A stretch of DNA of 24,432 bases from contig LT649465.1 of assembly GCA_900128395.1 (NCBI GenBank), positions 1 to 24,432 of the forward strand. The letters run 5' to 3'. This document shows, piece after piece, positions 3,296 to 24,432 of this stretch (positions within the stretch are counted from its first letter, which is position 1; each line of letters begins with the position of its first letter). Below the pieces are notes generated by a model, which worked only from the letters and a program-made list of their open reading frames with translations, was not told where the DNA came from and ran no database searches. The stretch comes from Stramenopiles sp. TOSAG23-2. Taxonomy: Eukaryota > Sar. The translations under genes were made by a program, and so were the position numbers.

Positions 3296-6200
3296 ATGTA
3301 TACTATCAAACATAATTTATTATTGCAACTGCATATTTTTCTGATCCTAATTATGCAAATGTATATAGAAATTAATGGAATTGAAAATAATGTTGGTGTT
3401 TTAAATACATGGCTGGTTAGTGGAAACTCAGAGAATGCACTGGATTTAGTATTTTTATCCGAGGGATATACCGATAGAGAAAAAGATAAATTTCTTAATG
3501 ATGTAAAACGTTTTAAAAAAGAAGGATTCGAAGAAGGGGGGCTGTATTTCAATTATAGTCCATTTTTTAATTTACACAGTGTCTTTACCCCGTCAAAATT
3601 ATCAGGTGTTGGTACAAATGGAAGCCCAAAAGATACCGCATATCACCTGTATCGTGATTCAGGTAAATTGCGGTCTATACTTCCTGTAGACGATTTTTCA
3701 TATCCAAAGGCACTAAGGCTTTGTAGAAAACACGCGCCAGAGTGTGATATTGCTGTGATTTTAGTCAATGATCCATTTTATGGTGGACTTGGGGACGAAG
3801 TAGCGATTTTAAGTGCGTCGAAATCTACAGGTTCGATAGCATTTAGGCATGAACTAGGTCATATATTGGCTGATATTGGCGAGGAGTATGATGGTGGAGA
3901 TGATTACAGCGGTGCAAATTTTGCAAAAACAAATAGATTATGTAAAGAAAATGAAAAACCTGAGAAGAAGGTATTGTTTGATGGTGTTGAACGCATAGAG
4001 TGGCCATGTGTACCATGGGGTAAATGGTTGAGCAAACCATTGAAAAGTGGAGAAAATAAAATTACTCCACAACCTATACGTATGGTATATATGGAACATC
4101 CTTGGGCCAGTTTTGATAAAGACGACGATGAACTTCATGAATTAATTTGGAAAAATAAGTTCCACTCCAAAGGGAAACCGTCATTTTTAAATTTAGAATT
4201 TAGTGCATCTGGTATAAGTGGATCTGGAAAAATAAAATTATTTGTTGATGAACATGAAATTGGAGCATTAGATTTGCCAAAAGACAATGATCGGCATTTT
4301 TTTGAATTTCATACGAAAAATAATGTCGATTTTATGTACAGTGAGGAAGATTCGGAACATGAAATTGTGATTGCAATTGAGAGTACTGTTAAAGGAAATA
4401 TAGGCTCCGCATTTCCTAAACACCCACCTCCGATGTTATGTCATATTGGAATTTGGGAATATTTTGAACCATTTGACTCAAAGGAAGGATTTATTGGCGC
4501 GTTTCCTGTTTATCAAAAGGCAGGTGGGGAAATAATAGGATACCGACCAACTGATAATTCATGTTTAATGCGAGAAATGCAATCAAAAAAATTATGCCCA
4601 ATCTGTAGAGAAGCAATATGGAAACAGCTATTCGCAAAAACACAAATATTGGAATCCATACAATACACAGTTGTGTCAAATGATGTGACCATATCATTAA
4701 AAACATTACCTTTTAGCATAATGCGTCGTTTGGAAAATGTGAATGCACATGATTCGCTTCAAAATGAAGAATTTCAAATTCGGTGGGAAAGATGCAATGA
4801 AGTTAGTAACAATGTAAGAAGAAAAGCATGGCAACAAAATGCAAATATGTTCTCCATAGATACAAAAGTTAAAACTGCAATTGGCTGCTGGAAAGTTTAT
4901 TTACAATTAATATCTGATGAAGTAAGGAACGGAAGAATGCTTCTAGGTGCTAAATTTAATATACCAGCAAATATGACTTCAAATGCAGTAAAATTTGCAA
5001 TCATTCCGGCGGATGACAGTTTAAATTTATTAGAAAGTAAAAAGGATAAAAAAATAGGCGATATGCCTGGAAAAGAAGAAGAGAGGGATGAACTTAATTT
5101 GAAGAAGAGAAAGGACATGGCGAGGACGAAACAGCATTTTAGTAATATTGAACAAAAATCTTCAAAAAAAGATAAACATGTTGTATCAATATTAAAACAG
5201 GAAAAAGTAATTGCAGTACAATCTAAAAAATCAAATTTTGGTATATATCTGGTTTATAAAGTTGATTTTTGTGTAGTAGCAACTATTTTGATATTTTATT
5301 TGGTTGGTGGTTCAAAAATTCGAAGTTTAATCAGGCGAAATAATATCGTTCTAATATTTTTATTTGTACTTGTCCATGTAAGTTTGATTGCTTTTTATCA
5401 ATATGAAATTGAAAATCAACCATACCAATCATCTGTCTTAGTACAAAATGTTAAAAACAACCAAAACCAACAACATATTACAAATAAAAAAAAAATAGAA
5501 ATACAAAGATTACCAACAAAGAAAGTTGTAAATGCTGTACAGAAACATGAAAGTAAGCAATTGCAAGGAGATAAAAAAGATATACAAGATCAAAAAGAAG
5601 AAAAAGTCCCTACTTCAAATAAATTAAATGATATGATTAAGACCAACACAATAAATTTAGCAAAGACCATACGTCGAGAGAAATGTAAAAGTGCACATTA
5701 TGGACCAGAGAAATTAGTTGATGAAGATGGTTACATTTGTCCGCTGGTATTAGCTGATTTTACCAATGGTTGTTGCCCACGACAGACTAGTTCATTATTA
5801 TTGAAGAAAAAAGCAATATCAAAACGATATCAATGTAATAATTGTCACAAAAAAATGCAATGTTGCAAAGAATATGAGACTTGTATATCTTGTTGTATTG
5901 GCAAACTTGAGGAAGAAAAAGAACAAAATGGCAATAATGATAAGAGCACAATCAAGAATGCAAAAGATAATATGGATAAAACGAAACCAATAGAATTAGT
6001 TTATGATGGAATTAAAATTTTTAAACCACCCCAATGCTATGATGAAAATCCATTTATTAAATGCCAATGTAGATGTAAAACACATAGTCAATTGTCAAGG
6101 CATGAAAATTCATATAGAACACCTTGGCATTTTTGTTATCACGAGACCCCACCCTCACGTCCACCATATGAATTAATAATAGCCAATCGTGAGGAATCGT

Positions 6201-6448
6201 GTGTATCAGCTTGTCATCGTCATCAAGGTATGATATGTGAAGACCATGATCTAGTAGCGATTAATAATTGTGCATATTTAAAGAAAACATTTTCATGTAA
6301 ATCGTGTAACGGGAATCGAGGTAGTGATCAACCGGCATTTAACCCAAAAGAAAAATCATGTCTCTTTAACAATAATTTACAATACATAAGTTGTTCTGGG
6401 CAACATAAGGATACTAAACGGTTGTGCCCGTGCAGAAAACCATGGTAG
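3296..6448 (+). CDS. Predicted M64-type metallopeptidase fused to SPRING (C12orf49)-like and MGAT5-C-terminus-like domains
   Basis: A 1050-residue protein. A hydrophobic N-terminus (about 8-25) looks like a signal peptide. Residues about 45-260 resemble peptidase M64 (IgA peptidase family): LVFLSEGYT, then HELGH at 185-189 followed by EEY at 196-198, giving two His zinc ligands, the catalytic Glu and a likely acidic third ligand. Two hydrophobic helices (~658-672 and 684-701) flank a basic loop (KIRSLIRR), so both ends are predicted lumenal. Residues ~797-951 match SPRING: C-x-GY-C, NGCCP, CCKEYETCISCC, CRCKTHSQLSRHENSYR and FCYHE. Residues ~968-1046 resemble the Cys-rich C-terminus of MGAT5/GT18 proteins (CVSACHRHQGMIC, INNC, GSDQPAF, LCPC). 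Animal SPRING is a single-pass ER/Golgi protein that licenses site-1 protease. Its role here (proteolysis in the secretory pathway) is inferred. The frame is uninterrupted, arguing for one polypeptide. Confidence 0.85.
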   Translation: MYTIKHNLLLQLHIFLILIMQMYIEINGIENNVGVLNTWLVSGNSENALDLVFLSEGYTDREKDKFLNDVKRFKKEGFEEGGLYFNYSPFFNLHSVFTPSKLSGVGTNGSPKDTAYHLYRDSGKLRSILPVDDFSYPKALRLCRKHAPECDIAVILVNDPFYGGLGDEVAILSASKSTGSIAFRHELGHILADIGEEYDGGDDYSGANFAKTNRLCKENEKPEKKVLFDGVERIEWPCVPWGKWLSKPLKSGENKITPQPIRMVYMEHPWASFDKDDDELHELIWKNKFHSKGKPSFLNLEFSASGISGSGKIKLFVDEHEIGALDLPKDNDRHFFEFHTKNNVDFMYSEEDSEHEIVIAIESTVKGNIGSAFPKHPPPMLCHIGIWEYFEPFDSKEGFIGAFPVYQKAGGEIIGYRPTDNSCLMREMQSKKLCPICREAIWKQLFAKTQILESIQYTVVSNDVTISLKTLPFSIMRRLENVNAHDSLQNEEFQIRWERCNEVSNNVRRKAWQQNANMFSIDTKVKTAIGCWKVYLQLISDEVRNGRMLLGAKFNIPANMTSNAVKFAIIPADDSLNLLESKKDKKIGDMPGKEEERDELNLKKRKDMARTKQHFSNIEQKSSKKDKHVVSILKQEKVIAVQSKKSNFGIYLVYKVDFCVVATILIFYLVGGSKIRSLIRRNNIVLIFLFVLVHVSLIAFYQYEIENQPYQSSVLVQNVKNNQNQQHITNKKKIEIQRLPTKKVVNAVQKHESKQLQGDKKDIQDQKEEKVPTSNKLNDMIKTNTINLAKTIRREKCKSAHYGPEKLVDEDGYICPLVLADFTNGCCPRQTSSLLLKKKAISKRYQCNNCHKKMQCCKEYETCISCCIGKLEEEKEQNGNNDKSTIKNAKDNMDKTKPIELVYDGIKIFKPPQCYDENPFIKCQCRCKTHSQLSRHENSYRTPWHFCYHETPPSRPPYELIIANREESCVSACHRHQGMICEDHDLVAINNCAYLKKTFSCKSCNGNRGSDQPAFNPKEKSCLFNNNLQYISCSGQHKDTKRLCPCRKPW

Positions 6449-6880: not shown

Positions 6881-8338
6881 TTACAACTCACTTATGTTCA
6901 TAACACTACTAGTATTATCATGGATATCACTTAAGATACGAATTTCATCAATATTACCCCCGTTAATATTGCTACTACTATTATACGAGGCGTAATTATC
7001 TTTTTCCTCATAATTATTTTTATGCCCATTGTTTAAACTATTCATTGTGACTGACAGATTTAATGAGTTTGTTTTATTTTCCAGCACAATTTGTTTCATA
7101 CTTTGTTGAAATTTATCTAAATAATTGAAATAATCCAATTCATTTGGCTGTTTATTAAATAAAACAGCCGCATCTTTATCATTCGTTTCATTTGGAGCTA
7201 TGAAGCTTTGTAATCCTTTTCTATTTGAAGCGACTTGAATAGTATCAGCTTTATAATTCCTGTTGGTAGAATATTGCTTCTTTTTATTTTTGGTTTTATC
7301 ATTTTTGTTCAAATTTATTTGCGATAATGTTGTATAAAATGACTTCGCCTCATTCTTTTCTTCGTGTTGATTCAAAGGAATGCTTTTAGCAGCCGACAGA
7401 ACCGCATCAAATTCAAACATCGCATTTCCAGGCATAGAAATAAGCTCTTTTTCAGCTGGGTGAAGTTCTTGAACCTCTTTTAATTTTTTTAAGTTATTAG
7501 TTTGTACACGACTGAGATCATCAATTTGAACTTCATGGAATTTTTCTAACCTCTCTATTTCTCGACTTTGTCCCGCTTTTAAATATTTAAGTTCTTGTTC
7601 TAAATGGATGATCCTTATTTTTTGCCCCGCGACAATTTTTTCAAGCTGCATAGCTTTTGTTCGCCAACGCTTTGTACTTTGCTCTATTATGATATTTTTT
7701 GTACTAGTAAACTGATTTTGTCTATTGGAGTTGTCGTCTTTCATTTCATGTGTTTGTTGTAAATAATAATTATTATTACTTTTATCCTCTATATTGTCAC
7801 TTTTTCGATAATTATGACTTTGTTGATGATTGTGTGTTTCATGTTGGTTATGTGAATGGCTATAATTGCTATTATTGGTATCGTGGTGATTAGCTTTCGA
7901 CATTTCTCCTAATGTTTCAAGATACGAGGAATGAATATGATGTTCCTCTTGCGAATTTCTATGTCCTTCATTGTTTTTAGTTATATTTCTAGTATTGCTA
8001 TTATTATTTACATTGTGATTGTTACCCAAATGTATATGTTTTCGGTAATGTTTCTTTTGATATTTTACTTTACTTTCCGCTTGAAAATTCTTTAGCACAT
8101 CAGGTGCATTTTTATTAAATGGAAAGCTAAAATCCTTTTCAGTTGTCATTTGTTTTACAAGATTTTTGGCATATTTGTTTCTTAAACGCTGCCACGTTAA
8201 AACAGTGGTAGGCTCATCTAGCTTTTTCAACCAATTTTTAACACGAACTTGACGTCTTCTATGAATATTCGGCTTTAACTTTACAATTTTCTTTCGTGTT
8301 GTTTCATATTCGTGGTCTAATTTATGCGATAAAGACAT
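6881..8338 (-). CDS. DUF4485-domain coiled-coil protein (CEP112-like)
   Basis: I choose the ATG at 8338 (MSLSHKLDHEYE), giving 485 residues. An upstream in-frame ATG at 8410 would only add a hydrophobic, Asn/Ile-rich stretch typical of spacer. The first ~85 residues resemble DUF4485, the N-terminal domain of centrosomal CEP112/CCDC46: LDHEYETTRKKI, IHRRRQVRVKNWLKKLDEP, RNKYAKNLVKQM, then FPF. A His/Asn-rich low-complexity region follows (about residues 125-225). A coiled coil comes next (about 230-300: KAMQLEKIVAGQKIRIIHLE, then LKYLKAGQSREIERLEKF). The rest is Asn/Lys-rich and probably disordered. CEP112 is larger and mostly coiled coil, so this is a relative sharing the N-terminal domain, not a confident orthologue. 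Centrosome or basal-body location is inferred from the family. It is convergent with the peptidase gene. Confidence 0.75.
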   Translation of the reverse strand: MSLSHKLDHEYETTRKKIVKLKPNIHRRRQVRVKNWLKKLDEPTTVLTWQRLRNKYAKNLVKQMTTEKDFSFPFNKNAPDVLKNFQAESKVKYQKKHYRKHIHLGNNHNVNNNSNTRNITKNNEGHRNSQEEHHIHSSYLETLGEMSKANHHDTNNSNYSHSHNQHETHNHQQSHNYRKSDNIEDKSNNNYYLQQTHEMKDDNSNRQNQFTSTKNIIIEQSTKRWRTKAMQLEKIVAGQKIRIIHLEQELKYLKAGQSREIERLEKFHEVQIDDLSRVQTNNLKKLKEVQELHPAEKELISMPGNAMFEFDAVLSAAKSIPLNQHEEKNEAKSFYTTLSQINLNKNDKTKNKKKQYSTNRNYKADTIQVASNRKGLQSFIAPNETNDKDAAVLFNKQPNELDYFNYLDKFQQSMKQIVLENKTNSLNLSVTMNSLNNGHKNNYEEKDNYASYNSSSNINGGNIDEIRILSDIHDNTSSVMNISEL

Positions 8339-8458
8339 CTGAGCAATAATTTCAATTTTGCTTCTTATTGATTTATTTAAGTTTATGTATATATATAACT
8401 GGCAAAACAAAGTTTGTGTGCGTTGTTTCTATTATTAATAAATATGACAATATTATTT

Positions 8459-9549: not shown

Positions 9550-12500
9550 ATGCAGCCGCAACCAATGGTGCAACAACGGCAGATGGCGCAACAAATGGTG
9601 CAACAACAACAAATGGTGCAACAGCAACCAATGGTACAACAACAACCAATGGCACAACAACAACCAATGGCACAACAACAACCAATTAAGAAGGAAGTAG
9701 AACTAGTACAGCAGCAACAAGAACAATTAAGTTCTTTGTATGAAAAAGAAATGACTGAAGAAGAACGCAAAAAGGCAGAGAAAGCAGCAAAAAAAGCAAA
9801 ACTGAAAAAACACGTTGGAATGGCAATGGCATGTAAGAAAAGAATCACTAGATTAAGAATATATTATGTAATAATGGCGTGGCTCAATGTTGCAGCGTTA
9901 GGTTCAATGTTTGCTTCGCTAGCTATTCTTGATGCACCTGTTGCATTTGATGAAGATCCTCTAATTGTACAAGCAACCTTTCAACCGAATGCTGATATAC
10001 CTGCGAGTAATGCATTGTTTGAGGCACTTGCTGCAGCTTCAACTAACGAAAAATTGAAAGATACGTACTACATCTACGCTTATCAGCAAGGAAAGTCGCA
10101 AGTACGAGTATGCACCGATCTGACAAGAGAAGAGTTTGAAGAAACGACTAAAGTAACTGAAGATGAATATTTTCGATGGGATTGGATTCGTAGTAAAAGT
10201 TCAACATTTTTTAAGAATTGTTTAAATGCAACTACTTTAGCATATAATGGTGGTTGTACTGAAAGAATCGCGTACCAAGATGGTCATAATTTTCATACAC
10301 GAGGAGAAGGGCAAAAAGGTAGATGCGGCAAACCCGGCACTCAGACGAAATTATTCTCTCCACCAGTTGATGATATCCCAACGGATCTAAAGCCGGATGA
10401 ACAGAATGGTCTTAATAACGGTTGGCTGTGGAATCACATGTTACGGTTCAAAGATCCAATACCATTTCATTCTGAAGTAAAAACTCAAAATTGTTCCTCC
10501 GATCTATGCACCACTGCTCAATGTGAAGATGGAAACTATTATAATCCAAGTGCAACATGTTTGGGGTGGTTTACTGCTGGTGAAGTTTCACATAGTTGTG
10601 AAGGACGAACGGATGAAACAAAGATACCAAAATATGCTAAAGACAAGGAAAATTACAGGGCAACCGTAGACAGACAAAGTAATCCACAAGTAAATGCAGA
10701 TATAATAAAAGAATGTCAAGCTACGCGACCTAATCCCGATGCAAACTATGGGTATTGCTTATGTAAAGACCCCGGGGCAGCATCTGGAACAAAAAGACGA
10801 AAGTGGATGTGTAAGGTTGGTGTTGAATTTACATGCGAAGAAGCATGTAAATGTACAAGTGAAAGTGGAACTGGAAGTTCGAGTACGGACGACACGGACG
10901 ACAGAGTATACTTCAATGGTGTTAAAATATATTGTGCAGCAGGGCAAAGTTGTAACAATTGGAATTGTAATGATTATAGGTGTAATAAGTGTAATAAGTG
11001 TTGTGGGGAAGAGCAGCAAGGAAAATGCGGAGATTATTCGAACATTCCAAATAATCAATGGATAAATTTAGAAGACGGAGAAAAAGGGAGCGATTTTTTT
11101 CGTGTTGGATATCAAAATATACCAGGCAGTCAAATCCAGATTATAGTATCAAAACAACCCAATGGAGGAGGTCAAACGTGGACGTATACCCGTAGTTTCC
11201 AAGTATTGGAGAACAACGGACCTGGCTACGATGAAATACGCTCCTTTAAAGTAATATATAGCGAAGACACTACAATAGAAGTGTTTTGTGGTAGTCAATG
11301 TTGGTGCTCTAGAGCACCAAATGTGCTTTCAGCCTGCTGGGGTGGCACGACCGATGTTGCTAAAGGAAAATGTGGTTCATACGAAAACCCTGAAGTAAAC
11401 AAATGGATAAATTTAGATGGCGCTGGAGCTGGTGCTGGTGGCGTTGATTTCGTTAGAAATAATGGGCATAAACAAAGAACTATTGAAGTTGCAAACCAAC
11501 GCGATGGCGGTGGAGAAACGTGGACGTATTCGAGTAGTTTTTGCGCAACTGAAAAGGATATGAATGAAAAACACGGACCAGGTTTTGATCGTATAAAATC
11601 GTTTAGAATTCGTCCAGATGCTGGTAGTGTTGAACAATGTTCTTGCAACGATGTAAGTGAGATTAAGGATGATACTGGGTCAGATTATCCCGAGTTTATG
11701 AAGAATACAGAATTTGAGAATCCAGAATGTAAAGCAATATTTGCTCAATTTCACAAAGGAGTTTGCAAACCTGGGCATACGGTTCTGAGTTATGGTTTGG
11801 AAAATGAAACCATCATTACGTTTTTTGTCATGGGCACGGTCTTTCGTATATGCAGTGTAATTTTTTCGATCACCTGGGCTTTAGATGCAAAAAACCAAGA
11901 TCAAAGAATTCTTTTTGCCTCATTAAACCCATGGGCAACTTTCATAGTTTGCTGTTACAAGATTAAAGACATTAATTTTGCAATGGAAAATGAATATTTA
12001 CAAGGTTTCCCATGGTTGCTCGATTTTCTTGATACTGCATTTGTAGCTGGTGCATTAGCTGGTGTGGCATTTGGTGCAAATCCATTTCCAGGAATTCCAA
12101 GAGGAAAATGGGGTATGTTTTTCCTTTGGGTTAATGCATTTAGGGAACTTGGAAAACTCGCTATGGTGTTACGTACAACAAAAAAACAAGAAGCATGGAA
12201 TGTTATAGGAGAGAAACGGCTTGTGCGTTTGCCATGGGCAATATTTTGTGATATTGGTCGCAAATGTTGCAAACGTTGCGTACCAAATTTTTGTGTTTCA
12301 GCAATACCATGGTGTTGTGTAAAACGAGAATTCATGATTATCATCGATAAACCTTCTTCTGATTTTGAAAAAGGTGATAAGTTAAAGCGAAAGGGTAAAA
12401 AAGGTAAATGGGAAACAGTAGGACGTCTTGAGGATCACGGTAGTGGTCATTCAGTTCATGTGGCGGAGCTTAAAGGCAAATTCAAAATAAATGACACGTT

Positions 12501-13965
12501 TAAAGTTACAAAAAAAACTATAAATAAAGACAACAAAAAAGAAGATACAAGTGGAAAGGACAGCAAAACAGAAAAAAAGGATAAGAAAGAAGAAGAAGAA
12601 CCAGAAGGTGTGGATTGCAAAATTTTAAGTATACCAGGAGACCCGGACGATAAAGGGTTTGATGGCAGGGGTCCCATTGTCATTGAAAAAGCCAATGTCA
12701 ACGTGTCATTTGATGGCCAAATACAACACGCAGCGTTAAAAGAAGGCAGATTATTAACTGTGCAGGAAAGCAAAGCATTTATCAAGACCCAATTGAGAGG
12801 TTGCTTGTGGTTGGATCAAGTGCTTGATAAAGGAAAGCTTGATAAAGGGACAATGGTACCTAAAGGCAAATATTTTGCTGCATACAAAAACACTAATATT
12901 GGCGTAGCGAAAGCATGGGTTAGCGCGCGGACAGGTAAAAAGGGTGAATCCGGGAAGACATATACGGAAACCGAAGGTAAATATCCAGACTGGGGTGATA
13001 AAAAAATCACATCTTATGGTTTTACATATGGTCCTGGAACTAATTTGATAGTGTATCGTTTGTATAAACGTGGCTTGCCACAAGGAAACGGTTATTTTAA
13101 TACGGTAACGGTGAATGTACAAATAACGGCACCACATAATAAAAAGAAGGGCAGAACTATGACTATGGAAGTGCCATTACCTGATGGTAGCGGAAAGACA
13201 GAAAAAGTGACAGTACCAAAGAATGTTGCCGCTAATCAACAATTTATTGCATCTGTTCAAGTTCCAATAAAGCAAAACTCACAACAGCAAATCTTGCAGC
13301 AACAGCAGCAATCAATACAACAACAGCAATCTGCACCAATGCAGCAACAACAGTCGGTGGTGCAGCAGCAGCAACCTGCACCAATGCAGCAGCAACAGCC
13401 GGTGGTGCAGCAGCAACAACCGATGATGCAACAACAACAGCCGATGCAACAACCAATGCAACAACCAATGCAACAGCAGTCAATGCAGCTGCAACAGCCG
13501 ATACAGCAGCCGGTGATGCAACAGCAACAAGTGCAACGCAGCTCTTCATACGTTGTGCAGCAGCCACAGCAACAGATGAACGTTCAGCAACAGCAGGTCC
13601 AGCAGCAGCAAATGCAACAGCAGCAACAGCGAATGATCCAGCAACAGCAAATGCAACAGCAGCAACAGCAGCAACAGCAAATGCAACAACAGCAACAGCA
13701 GCAACAGCAAATGATCCAGCAACAGCAAATACAAATGCAACAACAGCAGCAACAGCAAATGCAACAACAGCAGGTACAACGCCAGCCAAGTGCACAGCGA
13801 TACGCAGTACAACAACAACCACAACCAGTAGTAATGAATATTACTATTCCACAGGGAGTAGTAGCAGGGCAAGTTTTGCAGGTTCAAACCCCAGATGGAA
13901 GAACTGTTCAAATTCCAGTACCTGCTGGAGCCCAACCTGGGATGGTATTTCAAGTTAGAGTTTAA
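9550..13965 (+). CDS. Gln-rich multi-pass membrane protein with Cys-rich ectodomain
   Basis: A 1471-residue protein of unknown family. Residues 1-60 are Gln/Met/Pro-rich, and 65-103 are highly charged. A hydrophobic helix lies at ~104-127. A large Cys-rich segment follows (~128-750), probably extracytosolic. It includes two diverged copies of a ~90-residue unit starting near 491 and 606 (GKCG, N-x-WINL, DF-R, GGG-TWTY, GPG-D-I-SF). Hydrophobic segments follow at ~755-777, 786-806, 819-842 and 853-873. Then come a Cys-rich juxtamembrane stretch, a basic/acidic region, a globular-looking part (~1050-1200) and a long Gln tract (~1240-1420). A P-G-V-x-x-G-Q type beta motif occurs near 1204-1240 and again at the very C-terminus (~1427-1471). 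The parity of membrane helices is unsettled, so the side of the C-terminus is uncertain. Function unknown; a surface role is inferred from topology only. Confidence 0.8.
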   Translation: MQPQPMVQQRQMAQQMVQQQQMVQQQPMVQQQPMAQQQPMAQQQPIKKEVELVQQQQEQLSSLYEKEMTEEERKKAEKAAKKAKLKKHVGMAMACKKRITRLRIYYVIMAWLNVAALGSMFASLAILDAPVAFDEDPLIVQATFQPNADIPASNALFEALAAASTNEKLKDTYYIYAYQQGKSQVRVCTDLTREEFEETTKVTEDEYFRWDWIRSKSSTFFKNCLNATTLAYNGGCTERIAYQDGHNFHTRGEGQKGRCGKPGTQTKLFSPPVDDIPTDLKPDEQNGLNNGWLWNHMLRFKDPIPFHSEVKTQNCSSDLCTTAQCEDGNYYNPSATCLGWFTAGEVSHSCEGRTDETKIPKYAKDKENYRATVDRQSNPQVNADIIKECQATRPNPDANYGYCLCKDPGAASGTKRRKWMCKVGVEFTCEEACKCTSESGTGSSSTDDTDDRVYFNGVKIYCAAGQSCNNWNCNDYRCNKCNKCCGEEQQGKCGDYSNIPNNQWINLEDGEKGSDFFRVGYQNIPGSQIQIIVSKQPNGGGQTWTYTRSFQVLENNGPGYDEIRSFKVIYSEDTTIEVFCGSQCWCSRAPNVLSACWGGTTDVAKGKCGSYENPEVNKWINLDGAGAGAGGVDFVRNNGHKQRTIEVANQRDGGGETWTYSSSFCATEKDMNEKHGPGFDRIKSFRIRPDAGSVEQCSCNDVSEIKDDTGSDYPEFMKNTEFENPECKAIFAQFHKGVCKPGHTVLSYGLENETIITFFVMGTVFRICSVIFSITWALDAKNQDQRILFASLNPWATFIVCCYKIKDINFAMENEYLQGFPWLLDFLDTAFVAGALAGVAFGANPFPGIPRGKWGMFFLWVNAFRELGKLAMVLRTTKKQEAWNVIGEKRLVRLPWAIFCDIGRKCCKRCVPNFCVSAIPWCCVKREFMIIIDKPSSDFEKGDKLKRKGKKGKWETVGRLEDHGSGHSVHVAELKGKFKINDTFKVTKKTINKDNKKEDTSGKDSKTEKKDKKEEEEPEGVDCKILSIPGDPDDKGFDGRGPIVIEKANVNVSFDGQIQHAALKEGRLLTVQESKAFIKTQLRGCLWLDQVLDKGKLDKGTMVPKGKYFAAYKNTNIGVAKAWVSARTGKKGESGKTYTETEGKYPDWGDKKITSYGFTYGPGTNLIVYRLYKRGLPQGNGYFNTVTVNVQITAPHNKKKGRTMTMEVPLPDGSGKTEKVTVPKNVAANQQFIASVQVPIKQNSQQQILQQQQQSIQQQQSAPMQQQQSVVQQQQPAPMQQQQPVVQQQQPMMQQQQPMQQPMQQPMQQQSMQLQQPIQQPVMQQQQVQRSSSYVVQQPQQQMNVQQQQVQQQQMQQQQQRMIQQQQMQQQQQQQQQMQQQQQQQQQMIQQQQIQMQQQQQQQMQQQQVQRQPSAQRYAVQQQPQPVVMNITIPQGVVAGQVLQVQTPDGRTVQIPVPAGAQPGMVFQVRV
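13267..13800 (+). repeat. CAG/CAA glutamine-coding tract
   Basis: About 530 bases of mixed CAG and CAA triplets interrupted by ATG, CCG/CCA and GTG codons encode a Gln/Met/Pro-rich tail. Mixed codons and constant in-frame interruptions suggest retention of the amino-acid bias, not pure triplet slippage. A second, shorter Gln tract lies at 9550-9730 at the other end of the same gene. Confidence 0.85.
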
Positions 13966-18091: not shown

Positions 18092-19034
18092 ATTGTTATT
18101 TTATATAGTAATATTTTTTTAATTTTTTTTTCAACTATGATAGTCCTTTCGTTGTTTTTGTTGTTGTTATATATATATATATATATAGACTTAAATATGA
18201 TTCTATTATTGTTATATACACGAATGAATGTCTCTCACTTTGTCTATATATATATTTATATATGTTTGCATGTGTTTGTTATATCATGTTTCTATCCTTT
18301 TGTTTTAACTATATAGTATGTATAATAGTTAAATGTGTTCGGGCATATCGTTTGCAAGTTTATTTTTATTCATTTTCATCATTTTTGCAATATTGGATAG
18401 GGTAATACTAAATATTAAGTATAAAATATTGGTAAAGTAATGAACGGTGATATTATTAGATCACAGGCGGTTTTATAATTAATCATTGCAGCGTTAGCAT
18501 AAACATAGCATTACAACCCGATTTTTAGATACCAAATTGAACATTTAGAGAGGGATAGGAATAATAATATCCGATAATTAGTAATTTGCAATGTATTTAA
18601 TAATCTTACTTTGATAATTATTTTTAGATGATGAAAATTCCTGAAATGTTATTGATTTTTTTTAAGGCTAGCTAAGGCTAGCGAGGGGATAGCTTTGCGA
18701 ATGACACATATATAGGCATAAAATAATTCGATTTTAAGTCACAATAATTGTATACTCATTTTTTACCAGGAGGATAAAGGATACAATTATAAGATCGTCC
18801 AGGGATTTTTTCAGTTTAAAAAATTACAATCTGTTGGGTTGGTTGGGCTTTGGCCGGGGGCGCTATTTATACTTGTATGCAAATAGTATACAGGTATAAT
18901 ACTCCTAGCACAATAAAAAAAAAATCTACTATAAAATGCGAATAATATTATAAAAAATAATAATAATGTTACTAATAACCCAATTTTAGTTGAAATAAAT
19001 TAGAGTATGGTGATAGAAGGTTGTGTTTTTACAT

Positions 19035-19065
<31 letters not shown>

Positions 19066-19087
19066 TACACGTAATTATTTCACAACC
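18092..19087. other. Spacer with AT runs and a G-rich patch
   Basis: About 1 kb with no supported gene. It contains AT dinucleotide runs (18165-18187 and about 19035-19066), a duplicated AAGGCTAGC word (18665-18682) and a G-rich patch at ~18834-18862 with several GG/GGG runs, about 230 bases upstream of the next start codon. It separates two divergent reading frames, so promoters are expected here. Confidence 0.5.
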
Positions 19088-19676
19088 ATGCGCCGATCAT
19101 TATTAAATCGAAGTACAAGCTACAGTGATAGTAGTAGTAGTAGTAGTAATAGTAGTAGTGATAGCAGCAGCAGCGCTTCAAGTTATGAAAGAAGTGATGA
19201 AGATGAAAGGTCCAGTGAGGAGGAGGAGCAGGATGAAACAAGACGAAGAAGAATGCGTTTAAGACGTCGTATTAGAAGTCATCGAGCTTCTGCACCAACA
19301 CGGACTGCTAGTGAGGAGGCCCGGGAACGACGGACTAGGATAAGGTTGGCTAGGAGAAGAAATACGTCACGTGAAAATAATACAGAACGTCCACAAAGAC
19401 GACAAAGTACTCGTACACAAAATATTCTTGCAAGAGTGAGGAGAAGAAGAGAATCAAGAATTAGTCCTTCAGAAGTTAACCAAATAATGGAACGACAACA
19501 ACAAAGCAACAACAGCAATAATAGTGATAATAATGATGATGATGATGATAATAATAATAATAGGGATGATGAAAGCAGTAGCGACAGCTACACCAGTTCC
19601 AGTAGTGATATCTTCGATGATACCGACCGCGAGGATGACGGAGATGTCCCACCACCACGGAGAATAAAACCCTCCT
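19088..19676 (+). pseudogene. N-terminal piece of a Ser/Arg/Asp-rich gene (same sequence as the 5' part of the PH-domain gene at the window end)
   Basis: Start ATG at 19088 (MRRSLLNRSTSYSDSS); an ATG at 19007 would add only AT-repeat translation. About 196 residues follow: poly-Ser, an acidic block, an Arg-rich section and an Asn/Asp run, ending DDTDREDDGDVPPPRRIKPS. After IKPS (about 19676) the frame continues to 19786 but reads the antisense of the neighbouring HU/EF-hand gene, so that tail is not meaningful. The last 55 bases before the divergence are identical, in inverted orientation, to the window's right end, where IKPS continues into LGLTLFRVATGDG and a PH domain. This piece is therefore the 5' part of that PH-domain gene or a duplicate of it, cut off by a rearrangement or chimeric junction. 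Confidence 0.65.
19611..19665 (+). repeat. 55-bp exact inverted repeat, copy A
   Basis: These 55 bases are identical to the reverse complement of 24378-24432, the last 55 bases of the window. The next ten bases match at eight positions, and both changes are synonymous (ATA/ATT Ile, CCC/CCA Pro) before the copies diverge completely. Confidence 0.95.
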
Positions 19677-22600
19677 CGATTATTACCACTTGGTCGCTTT
19701 ACCCTTGCTTGTTCTTTTGCTCTCATTATTTCCTCCTCTTCTTGCATCTTTTCTCTTGTAACTTTACATCGTTTTTTATATGCTAAGACTTTTTTTGCTT
19801 TATGTTTTCTAAACAATGATTGTAACTTCATGACAGCGCGTAATCGCAACATACGCCTATACATTAAACCGTCTTTTTTAGATGGTTTCTTCGACCTACC
19901 CTTGCGGTATGCTTTTAAAGGGTCATCTCTTTCCTTATTTTCACCACGGCTACGATTGATTTTGCTACGATTATTATTTCTACTATTATCACTACGACGA
20001 GATCCATTATTACGTGCTGACTTTCGTCCAACTGCTTTATTCGCTGGCCGTGTATTATTACTACTACTTTTTCTTGCTGTCGGTCTATTTTTAAATTGAT
20101 CTTTGCCTTTTTGAGCACCAAATTGATTCTTTTCGTCATCTAATTTAGCATATAATTCCATTTTATCGAATTCTAAACCTTGATCTCTTAAATTTTGCTC
20201 CATTGCTTTTTCATCATCTTTCCCAATGAACAAATCATTTTTAACCTCTTGTATCGTTTGTTTCCCATCTTTCCCCGTCACGACTACACGGCGATTTGTA
20301 GTATTGGCAGTTTGCCCAGTACCACCAGAAATATGCCATGCATTTCTCATCATCAATTCCCAATAATCGTCCCCGTCAATCGATGCACTTAAATTTTGAT
20401 AGTATTGTACAAATTCCTCAAATGTTACGACACCGTCTTTATCTATCGTATCAAATTGAGATAAAAATTCCGTTAAATATTCATCTGATTTGACTTTCCC
20501 CGTTTTTACGCTCGGATGATGATCTGCATCGTAATTATATTTCAAATCATCGATAGTACAAGTTCCGTCTCCATTTCGGTCCAACAGCTTAAATGCCATT
20601 TTCACAAACTTCATGCGCCTGGCATCCATCGGCGGGGCTAACGAAAGCACGAGCTCGTCAAAACTTATCGATCCATTTCGATCGCGGTCAAAGACGGTCA
20701 TGCAACTATCTACTTCTGTTAATGTCAATTCTACGCCGTAATCTTTCATCCCATTTTTAAATTCCTCCTTTGATAAACTTTTATTTCCATCGTCATCCAT
20801 AATTTTCAACACTCTAGACAATGCATGTAAACCGTGTGAACCAGCTCTTGCTATTATCTTTTTACGTATCTTATCGACAATATTGGAGGAACTTCCAACG
20901 GGAGCTACGCCACCAGTGGAAGAAGCGCCTTTTGAGCCACGGGAGCCGAAACGTCGAACCATCTCATCATGCAAGTCACTGACATCGACTTGATTTGCCC
21001 CTAACGTAGCTGTTTGAGCAATTCTATCGCATGCTCTTTTATTCAAATTTGCACCCTTAATACTTTTAATTTTCAATGCAAACGTAGATGGAAACATTTT
21101 ATCATCACTGACTGACATATTCATACCTAACTTTTGCATGAAAATCGGTAAATTTGCTGGCGGTGTAAATAAAATTTTACGTAAAATATCCCAATCAGTT
21201 GGAGCTTCCACTTTCGTTGATCCTGTTTTATTACTTGCGATTTTCACCTGTTGTCTTGTATTATTACTACTACTTTTTCTTGCTGCCGGTCTATTTTTAA
21301 ATTGATCTTTGCCTTTTTGAGCACCAAATTGATTCTTTTCGTCATCTAATTTAGCATATAATTCCATTTTATCGAATTCTAAACCTTGATCTCTTAAATT
21401 TTGCTCCATTGCTTTTTCATCATCTTTCCCAATGAACAAATCATTTTTAACCTCTTGTATCGTTTGTTTCCCATCTTTCCCCGTCACGACTACACGGCGA
21501 TTTGTAGTATTGGCAGTTTGTCCTTTGCCACCACTCATATGCCATGCATTTCTCATCATCAATTCAAAGAAATCCGTATTATCAATCGATGCACTTAAAT
21601 TTTGGTAATATTGTTTCCATTCGTCCCATGTTACAATGCCATCTTTAACATCGGTTTCGAATTCATTCAAGTACTTAGTCAACCATTCATCTGGTTTCAT
21701 TTTGCCTCGTTTCACTTCATCATGACCAGTTGGATCAACATTTAATTTCATATCCTCAATTGTAATGGTTCCATCTTGGTTATAATCCATTAAATCAAAC
21801 GCTGCTTTGACCAGATCTAAGCGTCTTTGATTCATTGGCGGCGCCATGCCAAGTAGAAATTCATCAATATCTACTGTGCCATCGTGGTTCCTATCAAAGT
21901 ATGTCATAACCGCATCCAATTGCTTATTGCTTAAATCTATGCCATAATCACGCAATCCATATTTCAATTCTTCTCGACTCAACACTTTATTGCCATTGTC
22001 ATCCATGATTTTCAACACACGGCCCATTGCATGTATCCCATGCGATCCACCACGTTTTATAATCGCAGCTTTTACCTTTTCAATAATACTTTCGCCATGT
22101 GCATCGGCGGCAGCTGATTGTCCCCGTTTTGGTGTACCTATGGATTGCACTGCTTGGCGCCTTGAACCGGATTTTAAGCTGTACTTGTCGTTGCCATGGT
22201 TCGACCGTCGACTACGTTGGCTGCCACGAACACTACCACCATCATAACCGCTACGTCTACTACTACGAATGCTTCCACCGCCACGAGCGCTAATTCGTCG
22301 GCTACTAGCATGGCTTGGCACTGGAGATTGCTCGGAGCGTCTTGATGATGCCCGTGTACTTTGAATTTGGGCTGCATCTTGCTGTACTTTTTCTGCAAAC
22401 GTGCTTAGCGCCGGTTGTGTGCCTAGACGTGCTAAATTTCTGGGATTTAGACGTGCTGCACCTTGACGAGCTAAAAAATCATTAAAGTAAGTTGAGCCAA
22501 TCTTCATATCATTGCAGGTCACTTCACCTACTGGATTAAAGCTTAAACGTACGCTTTTTCCACGTCCTTTGTTCACAGTAATTGTAAACGTCTCTATAAT

Positions 22601-22957
22601 GCATTTCATAACTTCTTCAACAATATTTTTTGGTTGAGTCGTTTCCCTTGCAACTTTTGAAAGGTTTAACTTGCCATTTGGCCTTGAACCGGCTAATGAT
22701 GATTTTGCTTGCACGGCTCGTGAATTCCTGGCAAAAATATTGGATACGATAAAAATTGGTTTCCCAGCAGCATTGAATGTGAATTTCCCAAGTTTTGGTA
22801 CATCAACACCACGTTTAGCACTCAACTCTTGATCAATTACTGGACCAATTCCACGCCATACTTTTGAAAACTCTGAAAAGTTATATTGTTTTTTCAAAGA
22901 TTTTTTAAAATTTTCATATGCTTTTTCCAATACTTGATGTGAGGATATATCAATCAT
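19677..22957 (-). CDS. CCDC81-type HU protein with two calcyphosin-like EF-hand modules
   Basis: Starts at ATG 22957 (MIDISSHQVLEKAYENF). Residues ~1-75 and ~105-175 resemble the paired HU-type domains of CCDC81 (WRGIGPVIDQELSAKRGVDV, LGKFTF; second domain ending STYFNDFL). A basic Ser/Arg-rich linker follows. Two calcyphosin/CAPSL-like modules (~290-475 and ~692-885) each carry four EF-hands: good calcium loops DDNGNKVLSREE (319-330), DRNHDGTVDIDE, DYNQDGTITIED, and DDDGNKSLSKEE (721-732), DRDRNGSISFDE, DRNGDGTCTIDD. The fourth loop of each is degenerate. Each module ends with the same ~88-residue linker. A basic tail and an IQ-like segment (~1037-1060) follow. The frame stays open to 19469, but beyond ~19677 it is antisense of the Ser/Arg-rich gene, giving an Ile run; the true C-terminus is unknown. 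A Ca2+-responsive ciliary or basal-body role is inferred. Confidence 0.85.
20051..20314 (-). repeat. 264-bp intragenic repeat, copy 2
   Basis: Differs at a single base from 21257-21520 over 264 bases by my reading. It encodes the linker after the second EF-hand module (TNRRVVVTGKDGKQTIQEVK onward). Flanking module sequence is far more diverged, so this stretch was copied or converted recently. Confidence 0.9.
21257..21520 (-). repeat. 264-bp intragenic repeat, copy 1
   Basis: Partner of 20051-20314, offset by exactly 1206 bp (402 codons), so both are in the same frame. It encodes the linker after the first EF-hand module. The only difference seen is one base, which changes Ala to Thr (NRPAARK versus NRPTARK). 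Confidence 0.9.
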
Positions 22958-23611: not shown

Positions 23612-24432
23612 TCATGAAGAAGGCAAGACAAACGATTTCACATTACTAAATGCTTGTAACCATCGATAAAATACACTTGTGGAACTACAGGAAAAAGTCA
23701 ATAATGTTACTAAATTATTGATGTTTGTATTATTAATTGGCTGTGCTTGTCGAACTAAAATGATATTTTTTCGTCCATAAGTTTCCACATCAGGAGTCAA
23801 TGGCTGAATTCGTATATCAATTTTTGATAAATTGAATTCCTTATATGGAGTTGTATTATCTTCATCGTCTTTTGATATAGATAATAAGCCATTACTTATA
23901 TCAAATTTCATAAAACGATGATGCCAACTTTCCCTACCCAACAACTTATTTTTCGCTAATTTATACATCCATCCTGATATTATCGAATCATCATATGATA
24001 AATCATTTATAATAGTATTAGACGTATTGGCATTTGCTTGTATCATATTATCAACCTCATTAGGTGAAATTTGTTCAACAACAGTAGCTATTGGTATTGC
24101 ATTATTATTATTATCATTATTTAAATTTGTTTTCTGTTCATCATCAGCAATGTCATTATTATCATTAGTGCTATAATTATTGTTATTATTATTATTGGAT
24201 GGGTTGGGACGAGGTGATTCTTGGCTTGTAACAACCGCTGTATACGTTTCCGAGTTTTGAGGGGTAAGTTGTGATAATGCTTGAATGTTTTGAACTTTAA
24301 TCAGATTATTATTATCACTTGATGATAGTCCGTCCCCTGTTGCTACACGAAACAAAGTTAATCCTAAGGATGGTTTAATTCTCCGTGGTGGTGGGACATC
24401 TCCGTCATCCTCGCGGTCGGTATCATCGAAGA
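23612..24432 (-). CDS. PH-domain protein, N-terminus beyond the window end
   Basis: Stop TGA at 23612-23614. The frame is open to the last base of the window. A methionine at 24355 is not the start, because upstream residues continue in frame (DDTDREDDGDVPPPRRIKPS, then LGLTLFRVATGDG). The middle is Asn/Ser/Asp-rich. The C-terminal ~115 residues resemble a pleckstrin-homology domain: SGWMYKL, W-x-x-RFMKFD near the start, a Lys/Asp-rich beta turn, FNLSKIDI, and a final helix FYRWLQAFSN containing the conserved Trp. PH domains bind phosphoinositides or proteins at membranes; the ligand cannot be read from sequence. The upstream sequence is identical over 55 bases to the Ser/Arg-rich piece at 19611-19665, so the full gene probably begins with that Ser/Arg/Asp-rich N-terminus. 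PH assignment is by pattern and fairly likely, not certain. Confidence 0.7.
   Translation of the reverse strand, partial: FDDTDREDDGDVPPPRRIKPSLGLTLFRVATGDGLSSSDNNNLIKVQNIQALSQLTPQNSETYTAVVTSQESPRPNPSNNNNNNNYSTNDNNDIADDEQKTNLNNDNNNNAIPIATVVEQISPNEVDNMIQANANTSNTIINDLSYDDSIISGWMYKLAKNKLLGRESWHHRFMKFDISNGLLSISKDDEDNTTPYKEFNLSKIDIRIQPLTPDVETYGRKNIILVRQAQPINNTNINNLVTLLTFSCSSTSVFYRWLQAFSNVKSFVLPSS
24378..24432 (-). repeat. 55-bp exact inverted repeat, copy B (window end)
   Basis: Reverse complement equals 19611-19665 without a mismatch and stops exactly at the last base of the window. An exact 55-base overlap ending at a sequence end is what a de Bruijn graph assembler with k=55 leaves at an unresolved branch. 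Confidence 0.95.

Follow-up and report, generated by a model that had tools for sequence, protein, structure and literature searches.

An M64 metallopeptidase and a SPRING domain are joined in one predicted membrane protein of a stramenopile

We analyzed a 24,432-nucleotide contig of Stramenopiles sp. TOSAG23-2 (LT649465.1, hereafter the window) and found that a single gene encodes an M64 (igalysin-type) peptidase, a predicted membrane hairpin, a SPRING (CREST) domain and a cysteine domain resembling the C-terminal tail of MGAT5 (Table 1), and that this fusion is conserved in seven distinct proteins. Our tentative reading, which we regard as possible, is that the protein is a membrane-tethered lumenal M64 metallopeptidase with its own CREST cofactor domain in cis.

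Table 1. Features of the M64-SPRING gene (positions in the window)
Feature	Residues	Position	Strand	Basis or remark
Whole ORF: M64, membrane hairpin, SPRING, MGAT5-type tail	1050 aa	3296..6448	+	frame, Pfam, coding signal, fusion relatives
Signal-peptide-like hydrophobic start	1-30	3296..3385	+	hydropathy
M64 (igalysin-type) peptidase domain	38-451	3407..4648	+
Zinc motif HELGHILADIGEEYD	185-199	3848..3892	+	kept in 7/7 fusions
Beta-sandwich inserted between zinc motif and Met-turn	259-392	4070..4471	+
Met-turn C-L-M with C434 and C437	423-437	4562..4606	+	7/7 fusions
Beta-rich domain C-terminal to peptidase	452-570	4649..5005	+	structure model
Two predicted transmembrane helices and basic loop	649-704	5240..5407	+	hydropathy, charge, model
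SPRING (CREST) cysteine domain	794-948	5675..6139	+
MGAT5 C-terminal-tail-like cysteine domain	945-1050	6128..6445	+	without glycosyltransferase catalytic domain

The first-pass annotation had proposed M64-like, SPRING-type and MGAT5-tail-like domains from the letters alone and had named a profile search among its checks. Matches above the Pfam cut-offs bear this out, for M64 (PF09471, residues 42-202, 72 bits vs. a cut-off of 26, 6e-20), SPRING1 (PF10218, residues 794-948, 73.3 bits vs. 22, 2.6e-20) and GT18 (PF15024, residues 945-1046, 39.1 bits vs. 28, 4.8e-10), so that the M64 and SPRING matches looked for are both significant. Sequence matches in the PDB were to human SPRING (8uw8_B, 2.6e-9), MGAT5 (6yjq, 3e-9) and M64 (3p1v, 5.3e-9), and the fold matches agree with the three profile calls. 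An NCBIfam scan gave no match. We consider the domain identities well supported by sequence comparison. Each of the three families has one match in the source genome (17.45 Mb, 793 contigs), in every case in this gene. The GT18 match covers only profile positions 454-557 of 557, and unlike MGAT5 itself the fusion tail has no glycosyltransferase catalytic domain. Two MGAT5-type cysteine tails also form the end of an endonuclease/exonuclease/phosphatase-like protein on contig C255 (L002, 14179-14718, minus strand).

The unbroken 1050-residue frame of the first-pass annotation stands: it has an ATG start and no internal stop, with 72 and 127 stops in the remaining two forward frames across 3296-6448, and residues 651-790 would be stop-free by chance with a probability of about 1e-6 at their own base composition. 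Third codon positions have a GC content of 17-33% in all 11 blocks of the frame, lower than that of the first and second positions in 10 blocks, and this coding signal runs on through the low-complexity linkers.

Relatives were searched in two ways. With the C-terminal part, among 353 candidates of similar length, two relatives were found, both with the three Pfam domains: P0002 (1037 aa, 100% identical over the searched region) and P0003 (1028 aa, 49% identity). With a profile, 33 proteins were obtained at E <= 1e-5 among the 8000 candidates sharing most words, and PF09471 and PF10218 occur together in seven of these (P0002, P0003, P0004, P0005, P0006, P0007 and P0011). When the window's protein (P0001) and its near-copy P0002 are counted once, this makes seven distinct fusions, so that relatives in other public sequence data carry the fusion which the first-pass annotation had proposed to look for. 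All seven have M64, SPRING and the hairpin of two helices around a basic loop, and six have the tail. P0006 fell just under the cut-off when rescanned (M64 25.4 vs. 26 bits, GT18 26.5 vs. 28 bits), P0005 has no GT18 match though its tail cysteines align, and P0011 matches M64 best over no more than the Met-turn end of the profile and ends before the tail. Overall, the six further fusions are 28-43% identical to the window's protein; identity is 45-68% in the M64 core and 30-52% in SPRING, and falls to 4-20% in the linkers and 9-30% in the hairpin.

Conserved architecture together with freely diverging linkers is the pattern given by a single functional protein. An apparent fusion might also arise if one frame spanned two adjacent genes, or if the assembly had joined unrelated pieces. 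A chimeric-looking inverted repeat does lie at the contig end, and one protein of 416 aa (P0035) is listed without the peptidase, yet has both membrane helices. This explanation was dropped as extremely improbable, given seven distinct fusion proteins and a coding signal that continues unbroken across the frame. Judged from these comparisons the M64-SPRING fusion is not a gene-model artefact, and the same fusion in relatives and the continuous coding signal uphold the earlier view of one gene.

The M64 domain has the igalysin catalytic fold, and its catalytic and structural zinc residues are intact in all seven fusions. By alignment, the catalytic zinc ligands are H185, H189 and probably E196, with E186 as the catalytic residue, and E197 is a structural zinc residue that forms the structural site with C434 and C437; H185, E186 and H189, C423 and M425, and E197, C434 and C437 are present in 7/7 fusions. 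The motif maps to H539/E540/H543/D550/E551 of the T. ramosa IgAse, and the igalysin zinc motif is given as HExxHxxxGxxD (PMC12237041). The Gly (+4) and Asp (+7) that follow the second His in igalysins are absent, as all seven fusions have D193 and E196 at these places. Glu occupies the place of the third ligand in 34 of the 35 M64 rows of our tree and appears to be a variant common to fungal, oomycete and bacterial M64 relatives. The fusion protein is like the igalysins (T. ramosa IgAse, BF3526 and BACOVA_00663) and the fungal and oomycete M64 proteins in fold, HExxH, Met-turn and a second zinc site of E and three Cys, but its third ligand would be Glu and not the Asp of studied igalysins.

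The M64 tree was built from 30 proteins, of which 29 were fetched and one is the window's, and five bacterial frames. Left out were the near-copy P0002, P0034, the SPRING-only P0035-P0038, and P0032 and P0033, whose sequences begin within the peptidase. All seven fusions fall inside one branch of 11 rows (support 100/100), separate from the M64 rows of fungi, oomycetes and bacteria in that tree. P0011, P0012 and P0015 have long branches and the order inside the fusion branch is therefore unsure. M64 and SPRING trees were also built over the seven fusions, and that of SPRING gave no supported fork. Unlike the fusions, the named fungal and oomycete M64 rows have no CREST domain listed and no C-terminal membrane helix above the hydropathy threshold. 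The four other rows of the branch (P0008, P0009, P0012 and P0015) have no listed SPRING, being fragments or SPRING-free, and M64 may therefore work without SPRING. In viral contigs 82 pattern matches contained no relative, whereas 91 pattern matches in prokaryote genomes, searched with M64, contained five M64 relatives at 26-31% identity, by title one from Deltaproteobacteria, one from a bacterium and three of Bdellovibrionota type. These five (L016-L020, from Bdellovibrionota-type and other bacterial MAGs) share the GEEYD motif, carry Asp where the last Cys of the structural zinc site would stand, and cluster with some metagenome rows in the M64 tree.

Hydrophobic segments were found by hydropathy at residues 6-27 (signal-like), 647-679 and 675-705, and the helix limits 649-671 and 684-704 were set by hand. 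The loop between the helices (672-683) has a net charge of +4, and the corresponding loops range from +4 to +11 in all seven fusions. A signal peptide and two helices with a basic loop had both been predicted at first pass: the former holds as a signal-like start by hydropathy, above the same threshold in three of seven fusions (P0001, P0003 and P0007), and the latter recurs as a hairpin with a basic loop in every fusion. Human SPRING has a basic stretch directly before its single helix, and by analogy the second helix of the hairpin may be SPRING's own anchor. Taken together, the signal-like N-terminus and the hairpin with its basic loop predict that M64 is in the lumen, the loop in the cytosol, and SPRING and the tail again in the lumen, so that a lumenal location of both M64 and SPRING is moderately supported.

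Following this topology, we suggest that the signal peptide would direct the protein into the secretory pathway, presumably the Golgi or ER, where the zinc-dependent M64 peptidase would be active on the lumenal side. The chain would then cross the membrane twice, with a short basic loop in the cytosol, and return to a lumenal CREST domain and MGAT5-type tail, and CREST could in cis contact and position or activate M64, or present membrane-protein substrates to it. The cofactor role is proposed by likeness to animal SPRING, which acts in trans on site-1 protease (S1P). The lumenal protease-cofactor unit of the first-pass annotation fits the domains and the predicted topology, and its cofactor part is what we infer. 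In line with it are the significant matches and agreeing folds of the three domains, a fusion kept in seven proteins whose linkers diverged as M64 core and SPRING were conserved, the retained zinc residues (7/7), SPRING cysteines (14/15) and basic loop (7/7), the single 100/100 M64 branch, and the activation of a protease by animal SPRING; on the other side, the S1P-contact surface of human SPRING is partly altered, the structure model gives moderate confidence for CREST and disordered linkers, the third zinc ligand would be Glu vs. Asp in studied igalysins, and only 3/7 fusions have a signal-like start above threshold.

The established role of animal SPRING is protease activation (PMC11231238; PMC12419022). 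It has been described as lacking any substantial homologue among other human proteins (PMC7048761), and matches to its predicted ectodomain were reported to be confined to SPRING from other species (PMC11231238). Human SPRING/C12ORF49 differs from the fusions in being a stand-alone protein of 205 aa with neither peptidase nor MGAT5-type tail. Of its 15 ectodomain cysteines 14 are kept in the window, and C115 is missing in 7/7 fusions. Mutation of R95, R174 or V180 in human SPRING is reported to weaken S1P binding. The window's protein has Leu, Lys and Ser at these positions, and so lacks R95 and V180 of a SPRING that binds a subtilase, while the other six fusions have R at both R95 and R174 and T, L or S at V180 (R95 and R174 6/7 each, V180 0/7). 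The two arginines could mean that CREST still binds S1P in trans and that the fusion couples M64 to S1P, so that the targets of M64 would be S1P, the S1P pro-domain or the substrates of S1P, and S2P would act downstream. Only 15 of the 81 non-Cys positions compared match the human residue in at least six of the seven fusions, and R95 and R174 are among them; the genome also has an S2P-like M50 gene. However, R76 is likewise kept in 6/7 and is not named as a contact in the section consulted on human SPRING, so that the interface cannot be told from conservation by itself. Together with the substitutions in the window, and with only a secreted 555-aa subtilase but no S1P found in an assembly that looks about half complete, this makes coupling to S1P unlikely.

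The genes of the pathway were searched exon by exon, with only the best candidates scored. The single M50 match in the genome has S2P-like motifs by eye. S1P was not found: the human S1P query matched only the gene of the secreted subtilase (L007), the best of seven PF00082 subtilase profile matches, two of which were inspected. L007 was rejected as S1P, as its S1P match is confined to the catalytic part and S1P ranks below two other subtilisin-like chains; L008 was rejected as sedolisin-like by eye. PF23001 (MBTP1_N) had no genome match, and the controls were equally without one. SREBP was not found among two bHLH matches, neither of which has a membrane helix by eye and one of which also matches PAS weakly, nor SCAP among three sterol-sensing matches, of which the two inspected look like RND/patched-type transporters by eye (the third is L021). 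Two bZIP matches likewise have no membrane helix by eye. Proteasome matches number seven, and 14 subunits are expected, which suggests that the assembly is about half complete or that introns hide genes; with an assembly apparently half complete, the absence of S1P, SREBP and SCAP carries little weight.

The system resembles the S1P-SPRING-S2P cascade in combining a lumenal protease with SPRING and in having an S2P-like gene in the genome, but the protease is unrelated and in cis, and S1P, SREBP and SCAP were not found. The suggested protist counterpart of S1P-SPRING stands as far as the S2P-like gene goes, and is set back by the missing S1P, SREBP and SCAP (in an apparently half-complete genome) and the loss of two of three S1P contacts. 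That CREST is an ancient general lumenal protease cofactor, and that M64 performs the site-1 cleavage in place of S1P and feeds an S2P cascade, we regard as quite improbable.

SPRING might also have no role in regulating the protease. The protein would then be an ectopeptidase anchored in the membrane, and its Cys-rich modules would contribute to stability or bind glycans or substrates. The doubled MGAT5-type tail of the C255 protein points to shuffling of such modules, and the beta-sandwich in the peptidase has carbohydrate-binding modules among its fold matches. We hold this to be fairly unlikely, since the one SPRING family member that has been studied activates a protease, and since fusions with just 28-43% identity to the window's protein have retained the pairing.

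Elsewhere in the window, two 66-nt arms of an inverted repeat (19611-19676 and 24367-24432, 97% complementary, one arm at the contig end) code for the same peptide in ORFs 19007-19786 (+) and 23612-24430 (-), which looks like amplification or an assembly chimera at the contig end. A 1162-aa ORF (19469-22957, -) with CCDC81-type HU domains and EF hands holds a 300-nt direct repeat (20051-20350 and 21257-21556, 97% identical) that probably arose by a recent duplication within the ORF. Another of 1471 aa (9550-13965, +) has Q-rich ends and by eye a cysteine-containing membrane-like middle, with no Pfam match at E <= 0.01, and a 509-aa ORF (6881-8410, -) carries DUF4485 (3e-10). Scans of the window for composition, tRNAs and promoters/terminators gave nothing useful.

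The first-pass annotation knew of no description of the M64-SPRING combination, and by title or abstract we found none among the papers listed from the open-access PMC literature. Forty oomycete M64 proteins are in print, 21 of them with signal peptides (PMC5700374), and fungal and oomycete M64 form one network cluster (PMC12402451); the passages on them in both papers do not mention SPRING. The fusions define a membrane-anchored eukaryotic branch of M64, and the conserved fusion of SPRING with a zinc protease unrelated to S1P gives independent evidence for a tie between this domain and lumenal proteolysis. This suggests that the role of SPRING with proteases is wider than sterol control, and the fusion provides a single chain in which the action of CREST can be tested.
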